Part shown: positions 1 through 2,390 of the stretch, in pieces | How positions within the stretch are numbered: the stretch's first letter is position 1 | Layout: each line of letters starts with the position of its first letter | Assembly (NCBI RefSeq): GCF_019679455.1 | Contig: NZ_JAIEZQ010000002.1 | Location: 1,054,001-1,118,000, forward strand | Length of the DNA stretch: 64,000 nucleotides | Source: Nocardioides jiangsuensis | GTDB lineage: Bacteria > Actinomycetota > Actinomycetes > Propionibacteriales > Nocardioidaceae | Reading direction: 5' to 3' | The notes under the pieces: generated by a model | The model's database searches: none | What the model was told of the DNA's origin: nothing | Seen by the model: the letters and a program-made list of their open reading frames with translations, nothing else | Made by a program: the position numbers and the translations under genes

Positions 1-971
1 GGGTCCTGGCCGTACGTCGCCCGGTACTCCTCGCGCAGCTCGTCGATCCCGACCACCTTGGAGTCGAAGTCGTTCTCGGCCAGGAAGGACAGCAGGCGCG
101 GGACCTTGATCGAGAAGACCTCCTCGGACCCGTCGAGCGAGCCGATGGTGAAGATCGAGAACGCGGCCGGCTGCTCGGTCTCGTAGAGCGCCTCCGCCGC
201 GGCCATCTTCATCGGCTGCACGTCGGTCATCACCTTGCCCTGGAAGTCGCCGGTCACGGCCACGCCCAGGCCGCCGACCAGCGCCACCACCGCCCCGATC
301 CGGACCGCGGTGCGGTACATCGGGCGGTCGGCGTCCGGGGTCGAGCGGCGGACCATCAGCCAGAACGCGACCCCGGCGACGAACGCGCCGCCGGTCAGGT
401 AGCAGGCGGTCACGGTGTGCGGGAAGGACACCATCTGCACCTTGTTGAACATCACCGCCCAGAAGTCGGTGAGCTCCGCGCGGCCGGTGTCGGGGTTGAA
501 CTCGTAGCCGACCGGGTTCTGCATCCAGGAGTTGGCGGCGAGGATGAAGTACGACGAGAGCAGGGTCCCGAGGTGGACCAGCCAGATGCACGCCGCGTGC
601 AGGCCGCGGGGGAGCTTGTCCCAGCCGAAGATCCACAGGCCGAGGAAGGTCGACTCGAGGAAGAAGGCGAGCAGCCCCTCGATCGCGAGCGGGGCGCCGA
701 AGATGTCGCCGACGAATCGCGAGTAGTCGCTCCAGTTCATCCCGAACTGGAACTCCTGCACGATCCCGGTGACCACGCCGATCGCGAAGTTGATCAGGAA
801 GAGCTTGCCGAAGAACTTCGTCAGCCGCAGGTAGGCGGGGTTGTTCGTGCGCACCCACATCGTCTCGAAACCGGCGATGATCGCCGACATCCCGATCGTG
901 ATGGGGACGAACAGGAAGTGGTAGACGGTGATGATCCCGAACTGCCACCGGGCGATGTCGACGACATCCAC
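1..971 (-). CDS. cydA: Cytochrome bd ubiquinol oxidase subunit I (partial, 3' end outside window)
   Basis: The reading frame runs leftwards off the window and shows about 323 residues of subunit I of cytochrome bd oxidase, the membrane quinol oxidase that reduces oxygen with high affinity and without proton pumping. The N-terminus VDVVDIARWQFGIITVYHF and the following IVQEFQFGMNW, EGLLAFFLES and NSWMQNPVG stretches are typical of CydA: early helices carry the axial haem ligand histidine and the conserved glutamates. The start is GTG at 971, chosen because GGGAGG lies about 8 bases upstream; no alternative start precedes it closely. The gene is divergent from a BlaI-type repressor and its start is 31 bases from a perfect inverted repeat, so repression by that regulator is likely (inference). 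cydB would lie outside the window. Confidence 0.95.
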   Translation of the reverse strand, partial: MDVVDIARWQFGIITVYHFLFVPITIGMSAIIAGFETMWVRTNNPAYLRLTKFFGKLFLINFAIGVVTGIVQEFQFGMNWSDYSRFVGDIFGAPLAIEGLLAFFLESTFLGLWIFGWDKLPRGLHAACIWLVHLGTLLSSYFILAANSWMQNPVGYEFNPDTGRAELTDFWAVMFNKVQMVSFPHTVTACYLTGGAFVAGVAFWLMVRRSTPDADRPMYRTAVRIGAVVALVGGLGVAVTGDFQGKVMTDVQPMKMAAAEALYETEQPAAFSIFTIGSLDGSEEVFSIKVPRLLSFLAENDFDSKVVGIDELREEYRATYGQD

Positions 972-1001
972 GGGCGGGTCCTCCCTCGTAGGGCGCGTAG
1001 G

Positions 1002-1037
1002 TACTACAAAGTGTAGTAGATACTACGACGTGTAGTA
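1002..1037. promoter_or_regulatory. Tandem BlaI/MecI-type operators between cydA and blaI
   Basis: Two dyads sit side by side: TACTACAAAGTGTAGTA (1002-1018, perfect 7-base arms) and TACTACGACGTGTAGTA (1021-1037, 6-base arms). Their centres are 19 bases apart, about two helical turns, which suits two dimers on one face. Operators of BlaI/MecI-family repressors contain TACA/TGTA half-sites of this sort. The pair covers the predicted -35 region of the repressor gene (its -10 TAGACT is at 1057-1062) and lies directly upstream of the cydA ribosome-binding site. Binding is inferred from sequence. Confidence 0.8.
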
Positions 1038-1069
1038 AGGAACCGGACAGGGCCGTTAGACTCATGCCC

Positions 1070-1450
1070 GTGGCACTTACGTCCCGGATGGGTGAGCTCG
1101 AGCGCGCGGTGATGGACGAGCTGTGGTCGGTCGACGACGACGGCTGGCTCACGGTGCGCGAGGTCCACGAGCGGCTCGCCCGCAGCCGCGACATCGCCTA
1201 CACCACGGTGATGACGGTGATGGACCGGCTGTCGAAGAAGTCCCTGGTCCGCCAGCAGCGGGACGGGCGCGCCTACCGCTACCAGGCCGCCGCCTCCCGC
1301 GGCGCGATGACCGCGGACCTGATGCGCGGCGCGCTCGAGGAGTTCTCCGAGCGTGACCGCCGCGGCGCGCTGGTCGCGTTCGTCGGGGAGGCCTCCCCGG
1401 AGGAGCGGGCCGCCCTGCGCGAGGCGCTCGCCGCGCTCGAGAGCGGCTGA
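1070..1450 (+). CDS. BlaI/MecI/CopY-family transcriptional repressor
   Basis: Small winged-helix repressor of 126 residues. The body GELERAVMDELW ... LTVREVHERLA ... IAYTTVMTVMDRLSKKSLV is the family's DNA-binding domain, including the YTTVMTVMDRL recognition helix, and the C-terminal third is the dimerisation and cleavage region. GTG 1070 is preferred over ATG 1064 because a -10 element TAGACT (1057-1062) ends 7 bases before it, which fits a leaderless mRNA; with ATG 1064 the protein is two residues longer. The next gene is an M56 membrane peptidase, the usual partner that inactivates the repressor on sensing a signal. Two inverted repeats overlap its own promoter, so autoregulation is likely. 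Confidence 0.9.
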   Translation: MALTSRMGELERAVMDELWSVDDDGWLTVREVHERLARSRDIAYTTVMTVMDRLSKKSLVRQQRDGRAYRYQAAASRGAMTADLMRGALEEFSERDRRGALVAFVGEASPEERAALREALAALESG

Positions 1451-1460
1451 CCCGCCAGTC

Positions 1461-2390
1461 GTGACCACCCTGTTCCTCTCCGCGCTCGCGGTGCTGCTGT
1501 CCGGGCCGGTCCCCGCGCTGCTCGGTCGGACCCCGCTGCTGCGCCGAGTGCCGCGCGCCGCGGTGACGCTGTGGCAGTCGGTGTCCCTGGCCGCGGTGCT
1601 CTCCGCGCTCGGCGCCGGCCTGTCCCTGGTCACCGACCGCGGCACTCGCGAGGGCTGGACCGGGTACGGCGTCGCGCTCCTCGCGCTGCTGCTCACCGCC
1701 GTGGTGCTCGGCCGGATGCTGCTCAGCGGGCACCGGGTCGGCACGCGCATCCGCGCCGTCCGCCGGAGGCACCGCGACCTGGTCGACCTGCTCGCGACGC
1801 GGGAGCACGAGGCGCCGGAGCGCGCCTCGGTGCCGGCCGGCCGGACCGCCGAGGCCGGGGTGCGGGTCCTCGCCGCGCAGGCGCCGCTGGCCTACTGCCT
1901 TCCGGGGCTGGCCCGGTCCCGGGTGGTGGTCTCCGCGGGCACCTTCGACCGGCTCGCCCCCGAGGAGGTCGGCGCGGTGCTGGCGCACGAGCGGGCCCAC
2001 CTGCGGGCCCGGCACGACCTGCTCCTCGAGGCGTTCACCGTGCTCCACACCGCCTTCCCGCGGTTCGTGTCGAGCGCCACGGCGCTGCGTGAGGTGCGGC
2101 TGCTGGTGGAGGTGCTCGCCGACCGCGCCGCCCGTCGTACCCACGGCCGGCTGCCGGTCGCCCGGGCCCTGGTCGCGCTCGCCGACAGCCGGGCGCCGGA
2201 GGCCGCGCTGGCCGCCGGGGGAGCGAGGCTGGTCGAGCGGATCCGGCTGCTCGAGGACGACCGGCCGCACCGGCTGCTCGCCGTCGCCGTGTACGCCGCG
2301 GCCGCGGCCACCGTGGTGTTGCCCACAGCGTTCGTCGCGCTGCCCTGGCTGGCCGGGCTCACGTGGTTGCCGGGGGTCGCCGCGGGGTGA
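1461..2390 (+). CDS. M56-family membrane metallopeptidase (BlaR1-like, no sensor domain)
   Basis: A 309-residue integral membrane protein with hydrophobic segments at about residues 4-22, 35-57, 68-88 and near the C-terminus (about 275-305). The zinc-binding HExxH motif is LAHERAHL (H176, E177, H180) on the cytoplasmic side of the predicted topology. The family cleaves a BlaI-type repressor to release transcription. Unlike BlaR1/MecR1 it ends after the last helices and has no extracellular penicillin-binding domain, so the signal is probably not a beta-lactam bound by this protein. GTG 1461 is 10 bases after the repressor's stop codon, giving a two-gene operon. Upstream in-frame codons would run back into the repressor gene and are not used. 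Confidence 0.9.
   Translation: MTTLFLSALAVLLSGPVPALLGRTPLLRRVPRAAVTLWQSVSLAAVLSALGAGLSLVTDRGTREGWTGYGVALLALLLTAVVLGRMLLSGHRVGTRIRAVRRRHRDLVDLLATREHEAPERASVPAGRTAEAGVRVLAAQAPLAYCLPGLARSRVVVSAGTFDRLAPEEVGAVLAHERAHLRARHDLLLEAFTVLHTAFPRFVSSATALREVRLLVEVLADRAARRTHGRLPVARALVALADSRAPEAALAAGGARLVERIRLLEDDRPHRLLAVAVYAAAAATVVLPTAFVALPWLAGLTWLPGVAAG

Follow-up and report, generated by a model that had tools for sequence, protein, structure and literature searches.

Which gene do two BlaI-type operators serve when they lie between a respiratory oxidase gene and a repressor–peptidase pair of the penicillin-resistance type? The question is raised by the beginning of the window (the whole stretch of 64,000 nucleotides that was analysed) from Nocardioides jiangsuensis, an actinobacterium of soil type, where cydA, encoding subunit I of cytochrome bd oxidase, faces a divergent blaI–peptidase pair across a short gap. 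Cytochrome bd supports the survival of cyanide, hypoxia, and drugs acting on the aa3 branch in mycobacteria and their relatives.

Gene content of the locus

The features of the locus are summarized in Table 1. Open reading frames and NCBIfam models (TIGR00203, TIGR02857, and TIGR02868 for cydB and cydDC) revealed that the full operon, which continues beyond the window edge, is cydA-cydB-cydDC. In this genome, cydD and cydC are fused and encode one 1154-aa protein (L042 5017–8478, minus strand), unlike in several Intrasporangiaceae, where two separate cydD/cydC-like stretches were observed.

Table 1. Features of the cydA–blaI region, with positions in the window
Feature	Position	Strand	Basis
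cydA, cytochrome bd oxidase subunit I, 5' part	1..971	-	PF01654 2e-133; full gene 480 aa, crosses window edge
BlaI operator 1 (predicted), cydA-proximal, TACTACAAAGTGTAGTA	1002..1018	.	Exact pattern match; conserved in relatives
BlaI operator 2 (predicted), TACTACGACGTGTAGTA	1021..1037	.	Exact pattern match
Putative blaI -10, TAGACT	1057..1062	+	Read from sequence; inferred
blaI, BlaI/MecI/CopY-family repressor, 128 aa	1064..1450	+	PF03965 4e-27; alternative leaderless start GTG 1070
BlaR-like membrane metallopeptidase (M48/M56), 309 aa, HEXXH	1461..2390	+	PF01435 7.8e-9; PF05569 5.6e-6

The blaI product matched PF03965 (Penicillinase_R) with 95.3 bits against a curated cut-off of 22.6, and its only sequence match in the PDB was M. 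tuberculosis BlaI (2g9w, E 1.2e-27). The genome has no second PF03965 gene, which leaves no doubt about the repressor that belongs to these sites.

The peptidase gene starts 10 bp past the end of blaI, and its product scored above the curated cut-off for Peptidase_M48. The original prediction had described it as an M56 peptidase; an HEXXH membrane metallopeptidase does lie beside blaI, but its Peptidase_M56 score fell just under the curated cut-off (26.2 vs 31 bits), so "M56" holds only at the level of the family. Among 41 homologues, M48 was detected in 41/41 and M56 in 34/41 (E ≤ 1e-3). Residues H176, E177, H180, and E217 were invariant among the aligned peptidases, and hydrophobic segments were found at both ends of the protein. 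The structure model (pLDDT 89) had Ste24 proteases and BlaR1 (8exp/8exq) as its nearest folds, with weak E-values. Profile search and the structure model revealed no penicillin-binding sensor domain in the 309-aa peptidase, as had been claimed, although this is not special to the present locus and holds equally for mycobacterial BlaR. The length of 105 homologues was 280–351 aa. A cysteine located 30 residues ahead of HEXXH (C146, in AYCxPG) was shared by every one of the 41 aligned peptidases and by at least 99% of the 105, mycobacterial BlaR included; it is possibly a redox switch and possibly a structural residue.

Operators in the intergenic region

The two 17-bp inverted repeats of BlaI type that had been predicted were borne out, both being exact palindromes (TACTAC-N5-GTAGTA) between cydA and the divergent blaI–peptidase pair. 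Their start-to-start distance is 19 bp, in phase, and this spacing was the commonest among relatives (34 cases). A -10-like TACACT on the cydA strand falls inside operator 1, and operator 2 extends into the -35 of blaI, in agreement with the predicted overlap. In nearly all of the loci compared, an operator lay over the -10-like TACACT and the region next to the cydA start; this hexamer is frequent in mycobacteria. On the blaI side, GAGTCTA (cydA strand) was kept at the position of the putative blaI -10 in several family loci. Measured from the cydA start (GTG, 971), the gap is 92 bp if blaI begins at its ATG (1064) and 98 bp if it begins at an in-frame GTG (1070); the 98 bases given originally correspond to the second case. 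Use of the GTG would fit a leaderless mRNA driven by the -10-like TAGACT.

Exact operator matches were absent from 150 simulated windows of 64 kb (first-order Markov), which rules out a chance origin of the palindromes. Across the whole 3.97 Mb genome, the only exact operators were these two, and the single site with one mismatch elsewhere overlapped the 3' end of the ribosomal-protein S4 gene. With this site in a coding 3' end as the sole addition, the genome scan at one mismatch or fewer revealed no operator before the ATP synthase operon, and no beta-lactamase or PBP2a gene was found under the operators in the genome-wide exact and one-mismatch scan. A three-mismatch scan was uninformative (483 matches vs 1662 for the reversed control), and the analyses were restricted to one mismatch or fewer.

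Conservation at cydA within the family

In a family sample of 150 genomes (Nocardioidaceae by named members), we read 95 cydA loci of this type, counting as an operator any site up to 400 bp away that had no more than one mismatch. An operator was present in 48/48 loci with an adjacent blaI and in 2/47 without one. In the first of these two exceptions (G070; L236 3417–6248), an insertion of ~2.7 kb with unrelated genes parts cydA from blaI, and one operator is kept at each promoter; in the second (G122), the locus stops at a contig edge. Two genomes (G071 and G057) each have a pair of cydA genes, of which only the blaI-adjacent one has the operator. On the CydA tree, operator and blaI adjacency each changed nine times, and the independent pairs testing their co-occurrence numbered 9 on the best tree and 2 on well-supported branches, so there were fewer independent events than the locus counts would imply.

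Many family members had a cydA with neither blaI nor operator, which indicates that the BlaI switch is dispensable. The same members favor a reading in which BlaI is an activator or only a fine-tuner at cydA and the main control lies with Crp, Rex, or SigC-type regulators, as does the role of Crp1 as the main cydA activator in M. smegmatis (PMC7739888). However, an operator placed over the -10-like TACACT and the start-proximal region of cydA suits repression, and we consider this reading improbable.

The notion that the operator accompanies any BlaI paralogue was ruled out by two genomes (G106 and G138; L238 and L239), in which no TACTAC-N5-GTAGTA was found near the divergent BlaI-M56 paralogues. 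These paralogues must therefore use another operator; the cydA of both genomes was without an operator.

Distribution across the Actinomycetota

Among named genomes from several orders, divergent cydA/blaI loci had an operator in 27/27 cases, comprising Nocardioides, Marmoricola, Kribbella, Microlunatus, Desertihabitans, Aeromicrobium, Actinomycetospora, Kineococcus, Phytoactinopolyspora, Paractinoplanes, and Ruania. Other arrangements were found in Intrasporangiaceae/Dermacoccaceae (Knoellia, Janibacter, Nostocoides, Phycicoccus, Flexivirga, and Allobranchiibius), where blaI-M56 lies behind cydABDC, at its 3' end. The three cydA promoters read in this group (Nostocoides, Phycicoccus, and Flexivirga) had an operator before cydA and none near blaI.

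In Mycobacteriales, blaI is unlinked to cydA, and an operator was located upstream of cydA in 42/42 cases examined (35 mycobacterial), consisting of 13/13 named genomes and 29/29 further Mycobacterium genomes. The background was 2 operator matches in 145.9 kb outside the upstream regions of these loci. The Mycobacterium pool comprised 148 drawn genomes, M. tuberculosis itself not being among them. Most mycobacterial cydA operators read TACTACACTNNGTCGTA, whose reverse complement is the type at mycobacterial blaI.

A gene-blind search for tandem operator pairs in 297 genomes of the class yielded 21 matches, 21/21 of which were directly upstream of cydA, and the reversed-pattern control yielded 0 matches in the same 297 genomes. 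Three of the 21 pairs (G212, G256, and G348) were at a cydA without an adjacent blaI. G256 and G348 also contain a BlaI-M56 pair followed on the same strand by a second cydA (L301 and L302) with no operator directly upstream of that copy; their tandem pair lies at another cydA of the same genome.

These patterns bear on whether the operators might serve autoregulation of blaI-M56 only, with cydA a mere neighbor. Autoregulation is the rule in BlaI systems, and the window operators do overlap the blaI -35 region too. Nevertheless, cydA keeps an operator even where 3 kb separates it from blaI, where blaI lies past the far end of the cyd operon, and where the two genes are unlinked, and the unbiased pairs were all at cydA, the three loci without adjacent blaI included. 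We reject this very improbable reading because the operators remain at cydA independently of the position of blaI. Comparison of the sequences strongly supports the assignment of the predicted operators to cydA, where they would do more than autoregulate blaI. The original prediction had placed cydA under BlaI control and called for a search for the operator pair upstream of cydA in related genomes. Operators proved conserved at cydA (48/48, 27/27, 42/42, and, for the pair itself, 21/21), and control of cydA by BlaI is strongly supported by the co-occurrence of operator and blaI, the retention of operators where blaI has moved, and the 21/21 pairs. The predicted operator–cydA link reaches a large part of the Actinomycetota, mycobacteria included.

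Proposed mechanism and inducing signal

We consider it probable that BlaI and the membrane metallopeptidase constitute a dedicated, conserved cytochrome bd switch in which repression is lifted by proteolysis of BlaI. BlaI dimers would bind the two palindromes, which lie over the core promoter of cydA and the -35 of the divergently transcribed blaI, and bound BlaI would jointly repress cydABDC and blaI-M56; a block of both promoters is proposed because operator 1 holds the -10-like element of cydA and operator 2 reaches the blaI -35. Once activated, the membrane peptidase would cut BlaI, as staphylococcal BlaR1 does, and this cleavage would derepress both operons. We infer BlaI binding, repression of cydA and blaI, and cleavage of BlaI from the analogy with the BlaI-BlaR family, which makes the mechanism a likely one.

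As for the inducing signal, our guess is that impaired respiration, or the envelope or membrane disturbance accompanying it, is the most likely. The same mechanism could instead respond to cell-wall damage by beta-lactams, directly or via kinases, making cytochrome bd part of an antibiotic response. Mycobacterial BlaR-BlaI is linked to blaC and cell-wall drugs, and amoxicillin-clavulanate induces both blaR-blaI and cydAB in M. tuberculosis (PMC5473688). In the present genome, however, the operators were found only at cyd/blaI, which leaves no beta-lactamase among the predicted targets, and the peptidase has no penicillin-binding domain, which argues against direct beta-lactam sensing. The missing domain is made less decisive by mycobacterial BlaR, which also lacks the beta-lactam sensor domain (PMC5473688) in a system that still answers to amoxicillin-clavulanate. 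On balance, we judge an antibiotic signal to be unlikely.

Another way to keep the mechanism is to let the peptidase sense the redox or quinone state via C146 near the zinc site. The invariance of this cysteine (41 aligned peptidases, at least 99% of 105) is consistent with such a role, as is the response of M. smegmatis cydA to respiratory inhibition, with 388-fold induction by cyanide and 7.3-fold induction persisting when the Crp sites were mutated in an aa3 mutant background (PMC7739888). However, an invariant cysteine may be structural, and we rate sensing through C146 as rather unlikely. Since the 7.3-fold induction survives mutation of the Crp sites, a further cydA regulator is wanted in M. 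smegmatis. The operator found before cydA in every mycobacterium examined makes BlaI a testable candidate for this Crp-independent control, and a respiratory signal is worth looking for in the sensor-less BlaR class.

Comparison with known systems

The abstract of the BlaI regulon study by Sala in 2009 reportedly gives five bound loci, with cyd not among them. This is in tension with the citation that a later paper gives for binding at the cytochrome bd promoter, where BlaI of M. tuberculosis is stated to bind (PMC5473688). The BlaI–cytochrome bd link is consequently less new than had been claimed, as that paper already stated it for M. tuberculosis in 2017. No published cyd-linked BlaI locus or operator conservation was found in the literature searched, and the dedicated cyd-linked locus and its breadth appear to be unreported. 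BlaI has also been shown to bind and repress the first gene of the atp operon (PMC12565901).

The M. tuberculosis BlaI-BlaR system (Rv1846c-Rv1845c) resembles the present one in its homologous repressor (2g9w), sensor-less peptidase partner, and operator type, and relatives of M. tuberculosis have the operator before cydA. However, mycobacterial blaI lies apart from cyd and has blaC-sigC and the atp operon under its control as well, whereas blaI here is divergent from cydA, with no other exact operator in the genome. The staphylococcal and Bacillus BlaI-BlaR1 and MecI-MecR1 systems likewise combine a PF03965 repressor with a neighboring HEXXH membrane peptidase and palindromic TAC-GTA operators, and BlaR1 (8exp/8exq) is among the nearest peptidase folds. 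The present locus differs in that it lacks a penicillin-binding sensor and that its predicted target is an operon for respiration instead of a gene for beta-lactamase or PBP2a. Rex of Streptomyces, the MarR-family CioR of Chromobacterium, and the GbsR-type CydE of Alishewanella are alike in that cyd transcription is under a repressor, either local or global; they belong to unrelated protein families with unrelated signals and are not known to have a membrane protease partner.

Evolutionary relationships of BlaI

Molecular phylogenetic analysis of BlaI, a 120-aa protein giving a weakly resolved and unrooted tree, placed mycobacterial BlaI in one clade (branch value 98) amid the cyd-linked BlaI proteins. 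This position tentatively suggests a cytochrome bd regulator as the ancestor of the mycobacterial beta-lactamase repressor. A broader proposal, which we put forward tentatively as somewhat short of an even chance, is that actinobacterial BlaI-BlaR arose as a respiratory switch for cytochrome bd and mainly still is one, control of beta-lactamase in mycobacteria being a later addition and the peptidase sensing the respiratory chain or membrane, not the drug. The original job of a repressor of the penicillin-resistance type may then be respiration and not antibiotic resistance.

In the same tree, the BlaI of Streptomyces sp. SID13031 (NZ_JAAGLV010000014.1; L078) grouped with Kribbella (branch value 100), and its locus is of the Kribbella type; this record is probably mislabelled.
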